Assembly (NCBI GenBank): GCA_945638575.1
Contig: CALZDP010000006.1
Coordinates: forward strand, 1-54,753
From: an uncultured Clostridia bacterium
Lineage (GTDB): Bacteria > Bacillota > Clostridia > Christensenellales > Borkfalkiaceae
Direction of reading: 5' to 3'
Length of the DNA stretch: 54,753 nt
In this document: piece after piece, positions 30,470 through 53,889 of the stretch
Numbering within the stretch: position 1 is the stretch's first letter
How the letters are laid out: the number at the start of each line of letters is the position of its first letter
Notes under the pieces: model-generated
The model's database searches: none
Told to the model about the DNA's origin: nothing
The model's input: the letters and a program-made list of their open reading frames with translations, nothing else
Made by a program: the position numbers and the translations under genes

Positions 30470-31573
30470 TTATACGGACATTCTTACGGGCAAGATAAGA
30501 TAAAGATATTCGTCGTCCGAATAAGGTTTGATTACACAGGGCGCGATTGAAGAATTAAGATTAAAGTTTACAAATTCATCGTCGATAACCCTTAAAGCGT
30601 CGATAAGGTATTTCGAGTTAAACGCGATAACCAAATCTTTACCTTCCAAATTGATGATAAGATTTTCTTTAACGTTACCCATTTCGGAATCGGAAGATAC
30701 GTCGACGTAATTTTCTTTTATGTCGAACTTAACGATATTCTTCATGCCCTTAGCAACGATTGAAGCCCTTTCGATAGAGGAATACAAAAGCCCTTTATTT
30801 ACTCTGAACAAGGTAACGAAGTCGTTCGGGATAATACGTTTGTAATCTATATATTCGCCTTCTAAAAGCCTTGTTAAAAATACCGTTCCGTCAACGCTTA
30901 TCATAAGGGAATTATCCTGTATTATAACGGTAACGTATTCTTCGTCTTTATCCAAAAGCCTTGTGATTTCAACTAACGCGCGCGAAGGCACGATGGCGCG
31001 GATGTTTCCGGAAGCCTCTCTTACGTTCTTTTTGCAAACCGCAAGCCTAAACCCGTCAAGAGCAACGCAGGTTAAAACATCGCCCGAAACTTCTATAAGA
31101 CAGCCCTTTAAAATCGGACGGGAATCGTCTTGCGAGCAAGCGAAACTCGTTTTGTTTATAACGTCTTTAAAGTTCTTTTGGTTGATTACGAAAGAGTTTT
31201 TGTTTATATCCTTTTTTATAACGGGATAACTTTCGGCGGAAAGACACTGGATAAAACCTTCCGAAGCGGAATAGGTTATTTTCAGTCTGGCGTCATCGCC
31301 TGCGTATAATTCGATATCGTCCTCGTTTTCTAATTTTTTAACAAAATCCGCAAAGAGTCTGCCCGGAACGACTATATCGCCTTCTTGATAGGTTTCTGCC
31401 GTAATTGTCTTTTCGATGGCGATTTCCATATCGGTAGCGGTAAGAACCAAACTGTCGCCTTTAACGGATAGTTTTATACCTTCTAAAAGTTGGTTAGGCG
31501 ATTTTGAACTTATTGCCTTTGAAACTTTATTGACTGCACCCGAAAGTTCGCAACCTTTGACGATCGTTTTCAT
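30470..31573 (-). CDS. dnaN: DNA polymerase III beta sliding clamp
   Basis: 367 aa in the three-domain beta-clamp order: N-terminal SKAISSKSPNQLLEGIKLSVKGD, central FACSQDDSRPILKGCLIEVSGD and VALDGFRLAVCKK, C-terminal VNFNLNSSIAPCVIKPY and YLILPVRMSV. The LPVRM end is the family's C-terminal motif. The clamp tethers polymerase during replication. Its usual partner dnaA is not upstream; instead the divergent 450-bp region with DnaA boxes lies there. AGAGG precedes the ATG. Confidence 0.97.
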   Translation of the reverse strand: MKTIVKGCELSGAVNKVSKAISSKSPNQLLEGIKLSVKGDSLVLTATDMEIAIEKTITAETYQEGDIVVPGRLFADFVKKLENEDDIELYAGDDARLKITYSASEGFIQCLSAESYPVIKKDINKNSFVINQKNFKDVINKTSFACSQDDSRPILKGCLIEVSGDVLTCVALDGFRLAVCKKNVREASGNIRAIVPSRALVEITRLLDKDEEYVTVIIQDNSLMISVDGTVFLTRLLEGEYIDYKRIIPNDFVTLFRVNKGLLYSSIERASIVAKGMKNIVKFDIKENYVDVSSDSEMGNVKENLIINLEGKDLVIAFNSKYLIDALRVIDDEFVNFNLNSSIAPCVIKPYSDDEYLYLILPVRMSV

Positions 31574-32010
31574 TGTAACCTCTTTTCTGATATTATTTCT
31601 TACATTAATTTAGTAGTATAATCAGTAGGCTTGTGTGGAAATGTTTACAAAATTTTTAACGTTGAAAAATTCCGTTTGTCATCGTAAAAAATGATTCTAT
31701 AAATTCCCGAAAATCCTGTTTATAACCTGTTGAATTTTTTGTGTAATGGTTCTTGATAACTTCCTGTTTGTGGATAAACGGTTATTTTGAACGCAGAAAA
31801 ATTTTACAGCCGCTTTCTTATACACATATATTATAAATAAAATTATTATAAAAGGCAAACGATTATAATGATTTTTACCTATTTTTTTATCGGTCGTTAC
31901 CTATCGGTCGATTTTTTAAAACCAACGCCCGTGTAAATTTATGGAAACAACGGTAAAAATTCACCGCGATATCAACTTTGTGGAAAAGTTTATACCCAAA
32001 ATTGTTGAAA
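31574..32010. other. Candidate replication origin (oriC)
   Basis: Divergent region between dnaN and rsmG with no gene. DnaA boxes: TGTGGATAA at 31769-31777 (perfect, reverse sense), TTATACACA at 31818-31826 (perfect TTATNCACA), TGTGGAAAA at 31979-31987 (one mismatch), TGTGGAAAT at 31634-31642 (weak). An AT-only stretch at about 31827-31851 next to the second box would serve as unwinding element. Genes diverge from it on both sides. This is sequence-based inference. Confidence 0.6.
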
Positions 32011-32023
32011 AGAGGATAATTTT

Positions 32024-32761
32024 ATGATACAATTAAAATGCTTTGTAAATAAGGGATTTTTATCGCTCGTTTTAGAAATGGAAGATATTTTTAAGTTACT
32101 TGATAATTGTAAAAATGTGGATAACTTTGTTAAATTTTTTGCCTTTTTTAAGGAAAGCGCAGGAAAATTTAACCTTACTTCTTTGTCAGACGATAAAGAA
32201 ATAATCGTTAAACATTTTTTAGACAGTCTTTACGGGCGTGATTTTTTGTCGGAAAACGCCAAAGTAGTGGAAATCGGTTCGGGCGGCGGGTTTCCTTCGG
32301 TACCCTTAAAAATAGAAAGACCGGACTTAGACTTTACTTTGATAGAAGCCACGGGCAAAAAATGCGATTACCTGAATAAGGTTAAAGAATTGCTTTCTTT
32401 CGATAAATTTCAGGTTGTAAACGGCAGGTGCGAAGAACTTGCCCAAAAGGAAAATTATCGCGGTGTTTACGATTACGCCGTGGCAAGGGCGGTTGCTCCG
32501 CTTAATATTTTGGCAGAATATTTGATCCCCTTTTTAAAGGTGGGCGGCATGGCTATTTGCTATAAGGGCAGTAACTATGAAGAAGAGATTTTAAAATCAC
32601 AAAACGCTTTATCAAAACTTAACGCAACGGTGGAAGAAGTTTACAAATACAGTCTTTGCGATAATTTGGGCGACCACGTTTTGATTATTTTAAAAAAGAC
32701 GGATAAAACCAAAGACCTCTATCCGCGCACGCAATCTAAAATAAAGAAGGCGCCGTTATGA
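32024..32761 (+). CDS. rsmG: 16S rRNA (guanine-527-N7)-methyltransferase RsmG
   Basis: 245 aa. SAM-binding motif VVEIGSGGGFPSVPLKI (~84-100), then TLIEATGKKCDYL and the RsmG-specific DYAVARAVAPLNILAEYLIPFLKVGG. It methylates G527 of 16S rRNA; loss causes low-level streptomycin resistance in other bacteria. Start with AGAGGAT upstream. An extra 15-20 N-terminal residues (IQLKCFVNKGFLSLV) precede the usual family start, so ATG at ~32078 is an alternative. Stop overlaps the next start by 4 bp (ATGA). Confidence 0.95.
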   Translation: MIQLKCFVNKGFLSLVLEMEDIFKLLDNCKNVDNFVKFFAFFKESAGKFNLTSLSDDKEIIVKHFLDSLYGRDFLSENAKVVEIGSGGGFPSVPLKIERPDLDFTLIEATGKKCDYLNKVKELLSFDKFQVVNGRCEELAQKENYRGVYDYAVARAVAPLNILAEYLIPFLKVGGMAICYKGSNYEEEILKSQNALSKLNATVEEVYKYSLCDNLGDHVLIILKKTDKTKDLYPRTQSKIKKAPL

Positions 32762-46211: not shown

Positions 46212-46685
46212 TTAGTATTGACTTTTTGAAAGATCAAAAAAATCTGCGTCAATCAAATTTTTAAGGTCGTTTGCATTTACGGAAACTTGTAATCCGCGCT
46301 TACCTGCGCTGAAAGTAATTTTATCAAACAATATGGCAGTTTCGTCAATAAAGGTACGAAACTGCTTTTTCATACCTATCGGAGAACAACCGCCGTGAAC
46401 ATATCCTGTCAACGGCAGCAAATCTTTTTGCTTTAACATTTCAACCGACTTAACCCCTGCCGCTTTTGCCGCCTTTTTTAAATCAAGGGTTGTATTTACC
46501 GGAACAACAAAAACAAGATGTTCCAATGTGTTTGCTAAGGTTACTAAAGTTTTAAAAGTTTCATCACAAGATTTACCGACAAGTTTTGCAACCTGTTCTC
46601 CGTCGGTAACGGTTTGGTCGTACTCCGAAAAAGAATAGTCGATTTTTGCAGTGTCTAAAATTCTCATTACGTTTGTTTTGTCCAT
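46212..46685 (-). CDS. ybaK: Cys-tRNA(Pro)/aminoacyl-tRNA deacylase YbaK
   Basis: 157 aa. YbaK/EbsC fold signs: DETFKTLVTLANTLEHLVFVVPVNTTLDLKKAAKAAG, then LTGYVHGGCSPIGMKKQFRTFIDE and GKRGLQVSVNANDL. It hydrolyses Cys-tRNA(Pro) made by mistaken ProRS; a tRNA-Pro gene lies at 54578. It is oriented toward cvpA and its upstream side opens onto the long AT-rich region. Confidence 0.92.
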   Translation of the reverse strand: MDKTNVMRILDTAKIDYSFSEYDQTVTDGEQVAKLVGKSCDETFKTLVTLANTLEHLVFVVPVNTTLDLKKAAKAAGVKSVEMLKQKDLLPLTGYVHGGCSPIGMKKQFRTFIDETAILFDKITFSAGKRGLQVSVNANDLKNLIDADFFDLSKSQY

Positions 46686-47117
46686 ATAACACCTAATTAA
46701 GTTAAGCGCATAAACATATTACTTGCGCTAAAATATAACGCAAAATAACTTAATCCTTTTAATAGGAAAATAATAACACCAAACAAAATGAAAATCAAGT
46801 AAATTAACTTTTACGTTAAAAAATATAGTAAAATTTTGAACAGTAAGTAAAATGTCTTACGGTGAGTTTTCAATGTATAAAACGGTAATAGAATATTCAC
46901 AAATTTAGTTTTATCGGGTAAAAAACTTTAAAAACAATTTGTGAAACATTAAGTTTGTCCCACTATAAATTTAAAAATTATTTTTGACCCCAATTTTGGC
47001 ACATTTTACCTAAATTTTAGCAAATCATAGGCAAATTTAGGCGGTTTTTAACCGCGACTATTGCCTAAAATTAGGCGGGAATTCTGTAAAAATTTATTCT
47101 ATTTTTCCCTATTTTAC

Positions 47118-47131
47118 TGTTTCGTGAAACA
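47118..47131. promoter_or_regulatory. Degenerate parS (central AC deleted)
   Basis: TGTTTCGTGAAACA: a perfect 14-bp palindrome equal to parS without its central AC dinucleotide. 30 bp from the next parS-like site. Confidence 0.45.
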
Positions 47132-47160
47132 TTTCGCACCAAATTACCTTTAAAAATCGA

Positions 47161-47176
47161 TGTTTCACGTGAAATA
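47161..47176. promoter_or_regulatory. parS: parS-like site, one mismatch
   Basis: TGTTTCACGTGAAATA differs from the palindromic parS TGTTTCACGTGAAACA at one position. Confidence 0.8.
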
Positions 47177-47670
47177 TTTGCGTATATATATAAATTGAAA
47201 GTGCATATACCAAACAAAAAATTAAATTAAAAAGAAATAAGTTACCGTACGAGTATCGACTAAATTAAATATCAACTGTTTTTTGGCTTTCCCTTCCTTA
47301 TATCCCGAATTTGGACATAAATATATGGCTCTTATACCAATTACTGTAATCCGGATCGATATATTATACCCACAAATTCAAGTCGGTTTATATAGTAGAG
47401 ATTATAAAGCCAGATTGAAAATTTGTAACTAATCAGATATAGCGCTGCATTTTATTTGGCGCAAAATATTAATGCGCTTATGTATATTATATGCGCTTAC
47501 TATTAAATTATTTGCTATTTAGTATTGCAAAATATATTTTAGTCAATAGTTATTTTAAAAATTTGCTCTGTATGAAGAAGTGAAATTTAGTTTGTATCGA
47601 TATTTGCCTTGTAAAAGCAGTGGTTTATATTGCAGAATGAATCTATTTTTAGTCGACAAATTTATAATCG

Positions 47671-47691
47671 ATTCTGTTAGAATTCATTTTA
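47671..47691 (+). repeat. Inverted repeat, left arm
   Basis: 21 bp with core ATTCTGTTAGAAT, exact reverse complement of 47959-47979; together they frame the perfect parS. Confidence 0.85.
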
Positions 47692-47857
47692 AAACAAGCC
47701 AAACATTCGATCTTTTTGTTAAAAATTATAACATCGTTGAGTTAATACCCTAATTTATATCTAAATCCGGTAAAATTGACGAGTTGTTTAAGTATCTTAC
47801 ATTTGATCTATATAAATAATTAGTAAATTCAAGAACAATTATATTTTGGCGCTAAAT

Positions 47858-47873
47858 TGTTTCACGTGAAACA
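47858..47873. promoter_or_regulatory. parS: Perfect parS site
   Basis: TGTTTCACGTGAAACA, the palindromic ParB/Spo0J target; palindrome extends one more base each side. About 5 kb from parB at 52984. Confidence 0.93.
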
Positions 47874-47958
47874 AAAGGATTGCGATCCTTGCGTCTCAAA
47901 AACTAATTATTAAGTTAATAAATAGGTCGGATAATTTACTAAATTATGAAGTGAAATC

Positions 47959-47979
47959 TAAAATGAATTCTAACAGAAT
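47959..47979 (-). repeat. Inverted repeat, right arm
   Basis: 21 bp, exact reverse complement of 47671-47691. Confidence 0.85.
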
Positions 47980-48088
47980 AGAATCAAATGTTGCCGACAA
48001 AAATACGAAGGCATTATTCTGTAATAAATCCGAATTTTGGTTGATAAAATAATAATTTTAACTTAAAAAACATTATCAAATATAGAAT

Positions 48089-48104
48089 AACGTGATTTAA
48101 TTTG
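48089..48104 (+). repeat. 16-bp direct repeat, first copy
   Basis: AACGTGATTTAATTTG, repeated exactly at 48542-48557. Confidence 0.6.
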
Positions 48105-48305
48105 TTTAATAATATAATTAATTATGTTTGCCGGCATTCATTAGAGTGTCGTTCACGTTTTGAATTATGTTATTTTTGTTAAAGATACCTTGCAGAATGT
48201 TAAAAATCTTAATGAAATTCGATAGCGCAAAAAGGGAAAACATTATGATTATGGGCTAAATATATGAAATTATCATAAAATAATGGCATTTACGTTAACT
48301 TTTCT

Positions 48306-48325
48306 AAAATGCATTCTAACAGAAT
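48306..48325 (-). repeat. Third copy of the inverted-repeat motif
   Basis: Matches the right-arm sequence over 20 bp with one change (core ATTCTAACAGAAT); a diverged opposite-sense copy (ATTCTGTAAGAA) follows at about 48359. Confidence 0.65.
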
Positions 48326-48541
48326 GGCTTTTTGTTTTGTCGGATAGAATAACGAATGATTCTGTAAGAAAAATGACGTAAAATGGTCGTTATTGACTAA
48401 AAATTTTACAAAAACCGCTTTTTGGTGCTAATATAATTATTTCGCGTATAATTTGAAAATTTAATAAAACATTATAGTCAATCTGCCAATATTTTTCTAT
48501 AATCGATACAAAAAACGTTAAAGTTATTTGTTAAAATATTA

Positions 48542-48557
48542 AACGTGATTTAATTTG
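48542..48557 (+). repeat. 16-bp direct repeat, second copy
   Basis: AACGTGATTTAATTTG, as at 48089-48104. Confidence 0.6.
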
Positions 48558-49557
48558 ATTAAATTAGAACATAATATTTATAATCACTAAATCTTTGCTA
48601 AGGTTATATAATCTGCGCTATAACTATAGCTTTGCGCTTATTATCATAATTTTATCGAAAAAGTTATATTTAAAATCAAGGTACAGATAATCGGATGCCG
48701 AGTATTTTATCGTAAATTTTGCTGTGAAAATGTTAAATACATTGATATTTAGAATAAAAATGCCGATTAGTATTGCCGGAACTGAAATAATTGACCAAAT
48801 AATGCGATATTATAAAGATAATAAATAATTATAGTAGAATTTACCGTTTGTTTTAAGAAATAATATTTTTTCTTAATAAATGTAGGATTTTACTGTAAAT
48901 TTAGTAATTAGATACAATATCCGCAGTCTTAGTAAATAAATGGGCTGAATCAAATATTTTATAGAAAAATAAAGGATATTATAGTAAATTACCGGTAAAT
49001 TTATGTTTTTAGGCGAATTATCGTTTGCATCCGTATATTAGATAGTTTTTTATTAAAAATCTTAGGATTTACAATGACTTTTGAAGATTTGCATTGATTA
49101 TTATATCGATATTCGATATACAGATGAAAAAATAATGATTTTTTAGGTGTTTGGTTGATTTTATCTGAATTTTTGGTGTTATCGTTATTTTTTTGGTTAA
49201 AATCATAGTAAATGACGTCATATTAGATGTTAAACTTGAAAAATGCCTGTCTTGATATAAAATTGCTTGAATTTTTGTTATAATTCCTATTATTTCAGAC
49301 ATATTCCGTAGTTTTTGTAAGATGAATGTTCCGGTAATAAAGTTTTTCTTTTGCATGACCTGTTTCTTATTTTCCGATATCAACTATGTGAATATATATA
49401 CATACATAAATTTTAATTTGATTAAACAGGTATTGAAAACGTAAAATATATATAAATATATATACAAATATTTGTATATAGTCGCATTTGACGGGCTAAT
49501 ATTGTCATTATTTGTTAACCATAATTTGTTTTACGGTTAAAAACTTAAAAAACCTTA

Positions 49558-49580
49558 ATAACTGGCTTATAGACGGGTTT
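49558..49580 (-). repeat. Dispersed 27-bp element, copy 21 (diverged)
   Basis: Minus-strand reading: AAACCCGT, core CTATAAG, CCAGTTATT. The only copy in the AT-rich region, 20 bp from a parS-like site. Confidence 0.6.
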
Positions 49581-49599
49581 ATATGTAAAAATTTCGTAA

Positions 49600-49615
49600 A
49601 ATTTCACGTGAAACA
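49600..49615. promoter_or_regulatory. parS: parS-like site, two mismatches
   Basis: AATTTCACGTGAAACA matches parS except for the first two bases. Confidence 0.7.
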
Positions 49616-49755
49616 ATTTATTTTAGTAAAAATGATAAGATAAAAGTTAACAAATTTGTAATTCTATCAATATTTTGAAAAGAAGTAGTTATTGTGAAAA
49701 CTTTTTGCTGTTTTTATGAATTTCTAAAAAGCGCCATAAAATACCAAAATTAAGA

Positions 49756-49784
49756 TTGCTAAATTTTTGCCAATATGATAAAAT
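49756..49784 (+). promoter_or_regulatory. Promoter of ftsH
   Basis: TTGCTA, 17-nt spacer, TAAAAT. Confidence 0.6.
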
Positions 49785-49877
49785 GTTAATAACAAAAGTT
49801 TTAATTACTTATAATAATTATTGATTACTAATAATCGGCAAATTTGGGTAAAGTTGGCGGTTATTTTGGAGGATTTA

Positions 49878-51926
49878 ATGAAAAACACAGGTAAAGTGCT
49901 AATAACCCTTGTCGTGGTTGTACTTTTAGCGCTTTTATTGGCTAATTACTTTTATGACGACACGTCTAATCTTTCCGTCTTTTGGGAAAAGTCAGGCGTG
50001 GTTTTTACGCAAGGCGATTATAACGTTGGGGACGAATATCCCGATGCGAAAGACTCAACCAAGACCTATAAAGTTTTATATGTCGGCGATGATTTTATCG
50101 TAATCGACAATATTCAGATAGATCGCTATTACGTTAACGGCTATGGTCTGCAAGGTTATAAGGGAAAAAGAGCGGTTGTAAAATCTTATTTTAACCGTGA
50201 AAGTCACGAATGGGACATCTTGCAGGCGCTAAGAATTTGCGGTGTAAAAGATTCGGCGTCTAATCCGAACGCAGGCAATATTTGGTCGGATTTGCTTTTC
50301 CCGATTTTTACGATAGGTATCGGATTCGTTATTATAATATTGTTCGTCCGTCAAGCAAAAGGTACTAACAGCGGTGCGTTTGACTTCGGAAAAACCAAAG
50401 CGCAGGTTATTGCCAACGTAAAGGTAAGATTTTCCGACGTAGCGGGCGCGGAAGAAGAAAAGGAAGAATTAAAAGAGGTCGTTGACTTTTTAAAGAGTCC
50501 GCAAAAATTTACCGCACTCGGCGCAAGGACGCCAAAAGGGGTTCTTCTTGTAGGTAACCCCGGTACCGGCAAAACTTTATTTGCCAAGGCGGTCGCCGGC
50601 GAAGCGAACGTACCTTTCTTTTCAATAAGCGGTTCCGACTTCGTAGAAATGTTCGTCGGCGTAGGCGCGTCGAGGGTAAGGGATCTTTTCAATACGGCTA
50701 AAAAGAATCAACCGTGTATTATCTTTATCGATGAAATCGACGCGGTCGGCCGTCAGCGCGGCGCCGGCTTAGGCGGTGGAAACGACGAAAGAGAGCAAAC
50801 CCTTAACCAACTTCTCGTTCAAATGGACGGTTTTGAAAGCAATGAAGGCATAGTGGTTATTGCCGCAACCAACCGTTCGGACGTGCTCGATCCTGCCCTA
50901 TTAAGACCGGGAAGATTCGACAGAACCATTTACGTGGGTATGCCGGACGTCAAAGGCCGTGAAGCCATTTTAAAGGTACACGCAAGGAATAAACCACTTG
51001 CACCCGATATAAACTTCAAAGTTTTGTCAAGAATGACAGGCGGTTTCAGCGGTGCGGACCTTGCCAATCTTTTGAACGAAGCGGCTATTTTGGCAGCGCG
51101 CGAAAACAGAAAATATATAACAAATCAAGACTTGTACGAAGGCATTAACAAAGTGCTTTTAGGCCCGCAAAAGAAGTCGAGAATAATCACCGAAACCGAC
51201 AAGCGCATGACCGCTTATCACGAATCCGGACACGCCATTTTGGCTTCTTTGCTGCCGGGGTGCGATCCCGTTCACGAAGTTTCCATAATTCCGCGCGGAA
51301 TGGCAGGCGGTTATACCATGACAAGACCTGATAACGACGACCAATACCTTGTCAAAACCAAACTTTTGGACGATATGGTAATGACCATGGGCGGAAGGGC
51401 TGCGGAGGAACTTATCGTTCACGCGGTAACTTCCGGACCGAGTGCGGATATTACGCAGGTTACGAAGATTGCTAAACGCATGGTTACCGAGTGGGGTATG
51501 AGCGAAAAATTAGGCCCCGTTTGTTACGGCGCAAATACGGAAATTTTCCTTGGAAGAGATTATCAAACAAAGGCGGATTTCAGTGAAGAAACGGCAAGGA
51601 CCATAGACGAAGAAGTAAGACGTATCGTTAACGAAAGTTATAAAAAAGCCTTAGATTTACTGACCGAAAACAAAAATCTTTTGGAAACCATGGCGAGGGT
51701 TTTGTTGGAAAAGGAAACCATATATTCCGATGAAGTTGAACTTATCATGCAAGGAAAATCCGCGCAGGAAATCATCGCATACATGGAAGAAAGAGATTCC
51801 AAGTCCGGCGGAAACCCCTTCACCCGCATGGAAAGCGCCAACGCTAAAAAGTCCGAAACTTTTGACGATTCGTCTATACCGCAAGATAACAATACAAACG
51901 AAAACAGCGACAGAAAGTTTCATTAA
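49878..51926 (+). CDS. ftsH: ATP-dependent zinc metalloprotease FtsH
   Basis: 682 aa from ATG 49878, chosen because TTGGAGG sits 5-6 nt upstream; the frame extends 19 codons further without support. TM1 at ~8-25, an extracytoplasmic part to ~138, TM2 at ~139-157. AAA domain with Walker A GNPGTGKT (~225-232), Walker [36 protein letters not shown]. Zinc site HESGH at ~448-452 with the distal Asp region. It degrades membrane and regulatory proteins; in Bacillus it influences Spo0A activity. Acidic C-terminus as usual. Confidence 0.97.
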
Positions 51927-51964: not shown

Positions 51965-52133
51965 GCGCGTAGTCGGCAAATATCAAAGCAGGAATATATA
52001 CCTCAATTTAGCCGAAATAGCGGCATATAAAGGCGAATTTATAGACTTTATAAAGCGGACTTTACAAATGGAAATTAAGATAATAACGCAAAGAAAACAC
52101 CACAAAAGAAGTAAAATACAAGGAGTTATATAA
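51963..52133 (+). CDS. Possible 56-aa ORF overlapping the parA start
   Basis: TTG start at 51963, four bases after GGAGGG (51953-51958). It encodes 56 residues (RVVGKYQSRNIYLNLAEIAA ... KRSKIQGVI) with a basic C-terminus, ending in TAA whose last A is the A of the parA ATG. The exact TAATG overlap hints at translational coupling. Unrecognised; chance is possible. Confidence 0.3.
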   Translation: MRVVGKYQSRNIYLNLAEIAAYKGEFIDFIKRTLQMEIKIITQRKHHKRSKIQGVI

Positions 52134-52900
52134 TGGGAAGAATAATTGCTGTTTCCAACCAAAAAGGCGGGGTCGGTAAGACCTCTACTTGCATAAACTT
52201 TGCGGCAGGTCTTGCCTTAAAGGGCAGAAAAGTGCTTGTTGCGGACATGGATGCGCAGGGCAACGCTACGACGGGTTTGGGAATTTCCAAAAGCGAACTC
52301 GAAAACAGTATTTACGACGTTTTGATAAACGAAGTGCCGGTTAAGTCGGTCGTTGTAAAAACCGACGTCGAAAACCTTTACGTTTTACCGTCAAGTATCG
52401 ATTTGGCTGGTGCGGAAGTTGAACTTGTCGGTATGAAGGGGCGTGAAAAACGCCTTGCGTTTGCTCTTTCTAAAATTAAAGACGATTACGATTATATAAT
52501 TATCGACTGTCCGCCTGCAATAGGACTTCTTACCATAAACGCGCTTGCCGCCGCAGACGGCGTTTTAATACCTATTCAAAGCGAATATTACGCTTTGGAA
52601 GGGTTAAGTCAACTTGTAAATACCGTCAAATTGGTGGTTAAATCGCTTAATCCTAAACTTACGATAGAAGGCGTATTGATAACCATGTATGACGGAAGGG
52701 CGCTTATTTCGCGCCAAATTGCGGACGAAATAAGAAAATACTTCGGCAATAAGGTTTTTGAAACGCTTATTCCTCGTAATATCCGCGTGTCCGAAGCGCC
52801 GAGTTACGGTAAGCCTGTAATGTTGCACGACAAACGTTGCCGCGGTTCGGTTGCGTACGTCAATTTTGTGGAAGAATACCTTACCAAAAACGGAAACTAA
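52133..52900 (+). CDS. parA: Chromosome partitioning ATPase ParA (Soj)
   Basis: 255 aa. Deviant Walker A NQKGGVGKTSTCINFA at ~8-23 with the signature Lys, VADMDAQGNATTGLG at ~38-52, DYIIIDCPPAIGLLTINAL, and LIPRNIRVSEAPSYGKPV near the end. ParA/Soj moves origin regions by ATP-dependent nonspecific DNA binding. In Bacillus it also affects DnaA and sporulation. AAGGAG 8 nt before the ATG. 83 bp upstream of parB; the cognate parS cluster lies 3-5 kb upstream. Confidence 0.97.
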   Translation: MGRIIAVSNQKGGVGKTSTCINFAAGLALKGRKVLVADMDAQGNATTGLGISKSELENSIYDVLINEVPVKSVVVKTDVENLYVLPSSIDLAGAEVELVGMKGREKRLAFALSKIKDDYDYIIIDCPPAIGLLTINALAAADGVLIPIQSEYYALEGLSQLVNTVKLVVKSLNPKLTIEGVLITMYDGRALISRQIADEIRKYFGNKVFETLIPRNIRVSEAPSYGKPVMLHDKRCRGSVAYVNFVEEYLTKNGN

Positions 52901-52983: not shown

Positions 52984-53889
52984 ATGGCAAAAGGTCTTGG
53001 CAAAGGATTCGCTGCGCTTTTACAGGACACGCAGGAAGATTACAGCAAATTTTCATTTGATAATTTGGGCGCTGAAGGGGAAGAAATTAAAAACAGCGTG
53101 GTCGAAATCGATATCGACCTTATCGAGGCAAATCCCAATCAGCCGAGAAAGATTTTTGAACCGACAAGTTTGCGTGAACTTGCGGATTCCATCGCCATGC
53201 ATGGCGTAATTATGCCTATCGTCGTCAACAAAAAGGGCGGTAAGTATATGATAATTGCCGGCGAAAGAAGGTGGCGCGCAAGCAGGCTTGCCGGCATGAA
53301 GACAGTGCCTTCCATCGTTAAGGAATACAACGAAAGACAGGTTAAAGAGATTTCTTTAATCGAAAACTTGCAGCGTGAGGATCTTAACCCCATAGAAGCG
53401 GCAAACGCAATGAAACTGCTTATGGAAGAATATTCCATTACGCAGGAAGAGTTAGCCGAAAGAATCGGCAAAAGTCGTTCGGCAATAGCCAATACGTTAA
53501 GGCTTTTGACGTTAGACCAAGGGGTTATTGACCTTGTTGCTACAAATCAACTTTCGCAAGGTCATGCGCGCGCCCTTATAACCTTACCTAAAAACGAACA
53601 GTTAAATATCGCAAAACGCGCGGTTTCCGAACGTTTGTCGGTAAGAGAAGTCGAGCAAGCGGTTAAAAACTATTACAATCCGCCCGAAGAAGAAAAGAGA
53701 AGAAAACGCGCCGAAATGGAAGCCAATATGAGCGTCGAACTTAAAGATTTGATAGTTAGAATGCAAAGGGTTTTCGGTACTAAAGTAAGCGCAATCGGCA
53801 ATGACAAAAAGGGAAGGATTTATCTTGACTATTACACAAGAGACGATTTAGACAGAATTTCAGATATGCTTGAAAGACTTAAAAATTAG
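52984..53889 (+). CDS. parB: Chromosome partitioning protein ParB (Spo0J)
   Basis: 301 aa. N-terminal CTPase boxes: IEANPNQPRKIFE (~40-52), GVIMPIVVNK, IAGERRWRASRLAGM (~96-110), and EISLIENLQREDLNPIEAA (~122-140). HTH at ~150-185 (ITQEELAERIGKSRSAIANTLRLL). The C-terminal dimer domain is basic (EEKRRKRAEMEANMS). ParB loads at parS, slides with CTP and recruits SMC. AAGGAGGG upstream. Its stop runs straight into a dispersed-element copy. Confidence 0.97.
   Translation: MAKGLGKGFAALLQDTQEDYSKFSFDNLGAEGEEIKNSVVEIDIDLIEANPNQPRKIFEPTSLRELADSIAMHGVIMPIVVNKKGGKYMIIAGERRWRASRLAGMKTVPSIVKEYNERQVKEISLIENLQREDLNPIEAANAMKLLMEEYSITQEELAERIGKSRSAIANTLRLLTLDQGVIDLVATNQLSQGHARALITLPKNEQLNIAKRAVSERLSVREVEQAVKNYYNPPEEEKRRKRAEMEANMSVELKDLIVRMQRVFGTKVSAIGNDKKGRIYLDYYTRDDLDRISDMLERLKN

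Follow-up and report, generated by a model that had tools for sequence, protein, structure and literature searches.

A gene-free block of 3.19 kb beside ftsH-parA-parB in an uncultured Clostridia bacterium is almost certainly the chromosomal centromere, and it carries, besides parS, a second conserved dyad element that we are highly confident is real and linked to parS. As a tentative model, to which we give somewhat less than an even chance, this ParABS centromere would be complemented by the dyad element acting as a membrane dock for a PadR-type transmembrane protein (PadR-TM). The block lies in a window of 54,753 nucleotides (the whole stretch of DNA that was analysed; its genome is G000 below), in which the following features were located.

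31574–32124, no strand: probable oriC, dnaN-gidB (DnaA boxes, cumulative GC-skew minimum)
46212–46685, minus strand: ybaK-like aminoacyl-tRNA editing gene, left border of the block (Pfam)
46686–49877, no strand: gene-free AT-rich block, very probable centromere (ORF gaps, GC, no decayed gene, no Rfam family)
47118–47131, plus strand: 14-nt parS variant TGTTTCGTGAAACA, without the central AC (kept in G002)
47161–47176, plus strand: parS, one mismatch (motif scan)
47858–47873, plus strand: parS, perfect (motif scan)
49600–49615, plus strand: parS, two mismatches, approximately 260 nt before ftsH (motif scan; counterparts in G002 and G006)
49878–51926, plus strand: ftsH (GGAGG, then ATG at 49878; TIGR01241)
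52133–52900, plus strand: parA (soj) (AAA_31)
52984–53889, plus strand: parB (spo0J) (GERRWRA motif, HTH_ParB)

The block (3192 bp) fills all the DNA that separates the start of ybaK (46685) from the ATG of ftsH (49878), running past the end given in the first-pass annotation (49755), and is flanked by yyaC/cvpA/ybaK on one side and by ftsH-parA-parB on the other. Its GC content was 25%, compared with approximately 40% for the genes around it. The four sites listed by the first-pass annotation are all at the stated positions: three match the 16-bp parS consensus TGTTTCACGTGAAACA (perfect at 47858, one mismatch at 47161, two mismatches at 49600), and one lacks the central AC (47118). A scan of all 1.67 Mb of the genome found no parS with at most one mismatch outside the block (by our own estimate, approximately 0.03 such sites are expected genome-wide), and a single further match with two mismatches was found on contig C20; the genome holds no rival parS cluster. 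Three sites with at most three mismatches were seen against 0.48 expected from shuffles of the window (2 of 100 shuffles reached three). The annotation's dedicated, non-coding, centromere-like block next to parAB is borne out: 46686–49877 is free of genes and contains all of the genome's parS sites with no more than one mismatch. Neither of the two findings that the annotation had named as refuting evidence (many equal parS clusters elsewhere, homology to a decayed gene array) was made. The Noc-binding sequence TATTTCCCGGGAAATA gave only a match with three mismatches, which is the parS at 47161 and is at about chance level.

The 14-nt site TGTTTCGTGAAACA at 47118 retains one half-parS (GTGAAAC) and precedes the parS at 47161 by 43 nt. 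An identical 14-mer occurs in G002, the nearest species, again 43 nt ahead of its parS, in flanks that are only about 61% identical, and the counterpart in G006 is a 16-nt site with two mismatches, 45 nt before parS. In P. aeruginosa, binding of ParB to half-parS sites has been reported (PMC7022226).

The encoded ParB is canonical: it has ParB_N and HTH_ParB domains, and agerrwras was conserved in the alignment to a solved ParB. In the window, dnaN, rnpA, yidC, and jag share a strand, and gidB is encoded on the other; the dnaN-gidB gap and the gidB start contain two perfect DnaA boxes and two with one mismatch at the cumulative GC-skew minimum. Therefore, oriC is probably at 31574–32124; this predicted origin is 15 kb from parS. 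The block itself was rejected as oriC, since the DnaA boxes and the skew minimum fall at dnaN-gidB. The dnaA gene was found apart from dnaN and the probable oriC (30470–32124 in the window), on another contig (G000:C4:65186-66484). The features of a ParABS centromere were found together here, namely parS above chance, a canonical ParB, and a position near the predicted oriC.

The relatives that bear names are 'Christensenella sp. UBA1259' and uncultured gut Clostridia. Between yyaC(DUF1256)/cvpA and ftsH-parA-parB, most of the family members examined have one to six parS, and the gap at this syntenic position varied from approximately 0.1 to 4.3 kb. Judged from this synteny, the location of parS is ancestral and the length of the block is a lineage-specific expansion rather than a requirement. 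Clustered parS near oriC are common, and P. aeruginosa has a cluster of four (PMC4368675; review PMC7022226). The first-pass annotation had called a dedicated block of this size unusual, and this claim was upheld in part: the block contains the longest gap without ORFs of at least 110 aa (3135 bp; in the rest of the 134 kb of this genome inspected, such gaps reach 1.1 kb at most), but parS clustering is common and the length is only lineage-specific. The block is unusual because of the second conserved element, which that annotation missed. Among 112 close pairs of neighbouring parS in relatives (parS loci L041–L136 and others), 54 had a spacing of 40–44 nt, which was the most common, and another group was seen at 26–29 nt. 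Helical phasing of the parS-parS spacing was rejected, as phase coherence was weak (R 0.17) despite the common 40–44 nt.

The second element consists of a box ACAGAAT and an inverted box ATTCTGT, separated by 32–36 bp whose centre is CCGAC-like. The first-pass annotation had also reported other inverted and direct repeats, and repeats were indeed above chance: eight non-trivial 10-mers were present at least three times in the block, compared with a mean of 0.1 after Markov shuffling. The most telling repeat, at which the annotation only hinted, was ATTCTAACAGAAT, of which the block holds three exact copies and the rest of the genome a fourth; this exact box was seen in 0 of 3000 shuffles of the block. 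Most copies of the box are followed by the CCGAC-like centre and then the inverted ATTCTGT. The copies are as follows.

47081–47093, minus strand: degenerate box copy ATTTTTACAGAAT, in register with an exact G002 box
47628–47693, minus strand: second element copy 1, box 47671–47683 (profile E 3.7e-13; training sequence)
47957–48027, plus strand: second element copy 2, box 47967–47979 (profile E 1.1e-12; training sequence)
48303–48370, plus strand: second element copy 3, box 48313–48325 (profile E 2.2e-15; training sequence)

The E-values that the profiles R1 and R2 give to the sequences from which they were built are not independent evidence. G002, G004, and G006 have the same box in their parS blocks. 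A strict scan for box pairs in 110 related loci, allowing any gap up to 69 bp, yielded 24 pairs in the 322 kb lying no more than 1.5 kb from a parS and 6 in the remaining 1592 kb, a 20 times higher density near parS (binomial p approximately 5e-14, which is optimistic because the genus supplies several copies, not all independent). The gaps of the pairs near parS were 32/33 bp (n = 18), 43 bp (n = 2), 52 bp (n = 1), and others (n = 3). Gaps that step by about 10 bp would be expected if both boxes must share one face of the helix, a suggestion for which few independent changes are available.

Model R2, a profile made from ten elements of other genera, matched 40 loci at E < 0.01; a parS lay no more than 1.5 kb away in 38 of them and no more than 500 nt away in 35, and most of these loci were outside the training set (e.g., E 5e-17 and 1.7e-16). 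The element was found in all seven genus members examined, with one copy each in G001, G003, and G005, which have shorter gaps, and three to five copies each in G000, G002, G004, and G006, which have long blocks. Furthermore, R1 detected it near parS in a second family, f19; approximately 18 genomes carry it there, and the gaps are 40–43 or 52 bp. On these profile matches, conservation of the element extends over two families of the order. We also observed elements downstream of parB, about 4 kb from parS, in two loci (L047:6552-6621, where L047 is G007, and L063:10177-10251), and matches with no parS of at most two mismatches within 1.5 kb in G010 (C15:3339 in L264 and C24:3737 in L284), a genome in which no parS with at most one mismatch was found. 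In alignment A5, the f19 elements are preceded by a strongly conserved flank, AATTATGTTATAAAAGCTGGTT, which resembles an extended -10 promoter or another binding site. A limited and partial search of the literature returned no account of such an element or of a PadR membrane tether.

The only recurrent second place of the element was the promoter of PadR-TM, in five genomes of two genera (g1 and g6). It lies approximately 30–160 nt upstream of the gene in G028 (3.7e-9), G011 (1.3e-6), G006 (1.2e-6), and G000 (5e-4), and the G002 promoter has an exact box with a weak model match. PadR-TM has an N-terminal PadR winged helix (PF03551, 57.6 bits against a Pfam cut-off of 27; PadR structures matched to 4e-16) and a long linker of low complexity in which the motif YKxVLxxLF is conserved; the C-terminus usually carries four hydrophobic (TM) segments. 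The gene was present in most searched genomes of the family and of f19. The copy of this genome is as follows.

G000:C2:69482-71245: PadR-TM gene; homologues are often divergent from an xer-like recombinase

In G006, the part of padR-TM that encodes the linker also contains an exact box, GAATGCATTCTAACAGAATGG (near 8038 of L159; G006:C18:70037). PadR regulators often control their own genes, and together with the element in its promoter this suggests PadR-TM as the binder. We consider it possible, at rather less than even odds, that PadR-TM binds the element and tethers the origin region. On the other side, most PadR-TM promoters outside g1 and g6, those of f19 included, had no detectable element, and many genomes with PadR-TM showed none near parS (g8, g10; families f3 and f18). 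In G012, which has a strong element, PadR-TM was not found; the neighbouring xer was not found there either, in a search that had no positive control.

In our model, the parS sites would load ParB clamps, which would spread over the gene-free DNA and engage ParA; this canonical ParABS action at the block is predicted from the sites and the par genes. The second dyad element would be bound by the PadR-type winged-helix protein with four C-terminal TM helices, and the membrane-anchored PadR-TM would in turn hold the ParB-loaded origin region at the membrane. Direct support exists for the parS block, for the element with its parS linkage and gap preference, and for the presence of the element at padR promoters of two genera; from them we infer the identity of the binder and the tethering function.

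Other readings of the block and the element were weighed against this model. A decayed gene array or mobile-element remnant with an incidental parS cluster, for which the unusual length and low GC of the block could speak, is very improbable. The 2841 ORFs collected from relatives matched only the block's own ORF and 28 aa over parS, and on this basis a decayed gene array was ruled out; the sole ORF of more than 80 aa in the block (49069–49383, minus strand) had no Pfam match, phage and plasmid searches of the block returned no match, and the position of parS is syntenic throughout the family. An RNA reading, in which the element would encode a small non-coding RNA or a structured leader beside parS with the outer boxes as its closing stem, also seems unlikely to us. 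Its arms paired in 85% of cells and covaried modestly (above shuffles and slides), and the conserved AATTATGTTATAAAA flank in f19 resembles an extended -10. Against this, a search of the block at E up to 1 identified no Rfam family, no pair showed a two-sided change in a set built mainly from the genus, copies of the element occur on both strands of the block, and gap classes at steps of about 10 bp better fit the helical phasing of protein on DNA.

An ordinary ParABS centromere in an overlong spacer, with the element bound by another protein and PadR-TM being merely another target gene, is a serious contender, though we would put it a little short of an even chance. The binder would then be, with the same degree of belief, a nucleoid-associated protein, a DNA bender, the divergent Xer recombinase, or a sporulation factor. 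The linkage of the element to parS is strong whoever binds it, the element was not detected in most PadR-TM promoters, and among the 19 padR loci with a visible xer, 15 have this conserved gene in divergent orientation to padR-TM. The dif site is 28 bp, unlike the present arms, which are 32–52 bp apart, and in g6 the element is within about 100 nt of padR-TM but approximately 0.8 kb from xer; both points count against this rival. Furthermore, an unsystematic look noticed no further DNA-binding gene recurring with the element.

If the PadR-TM model is correct, this order of gut Clostridia would have a two-part centromere, in which parS and ParB are joined by an element gripped by a membrane PadR unrelated to RacA, RocS, and Noc; we hold this broader statement as a possibility, with roughly one chance in three. 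The means by which the origin region is kept at a membrane or pole are known in only a few bacteria, each with an unrelated protein. A parS-linked element in two families, together with a candidate membrane DNA-binder, makes centromere anchoring directly testable in a large uncultured gut group, and suggests that bacterial centromeres may carry more than one kind of conserved site.

Compared with known chromosomal ParABS systems, the present one shares the parS consensus, parS beside parAB and near oriC, a ParB with GERR and HTH, and the ParA ATPase. It differs in that all high-scoring sites are in one gene-free 3.2-kb block and in the second conserved dyad element, which is outside the standard description. 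RacA of Bacillus subtilis is a DNA-membrane tether (PMC6593407), and RocS of Streptococcus pneumoniae is a DNA-membrane link interacting with ParB (PMC13042908, PMC7022226). The candidate PadR-TM resembles RocS in function only: both have an N-terminal HTH, a linker, and a C-terminal membrane anchor, and would link a ParB-bound origin. RocS combines a MarR-like HTH with a membrane-targeting helix, whereas PadR-TM has a PadR domain and four TM segments; the helix of RocS is short and kinked, unlike four TM helices, and RocS binds DNA non-specifically, whereas PadR-TM is proposed for a specific element. With RacA, our proposal shares the attachment of the origin region to the membrane via DNA sites. 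RacA belongs to another protein family than PadR-TM and is not an integral membrane protein. In the parS of plasmid P1, ParB boxes lie on either side of an IHF bend. The likeness is that inverted boxes flank a distinct centre, with gaps stepping by about one helical turn; the boxes are unrelated, and here the element stands beside a standard chromosomal parS, with no bending protein shown. Finally, HAAS-PadR regulators also couple a PadR winged helix to a membrane protein, but as a standalone PadR with a separate membrane partner (PMC11237479), whereas PadR-TM has both in one polypeptide and its proposed DNA target is a centromere.
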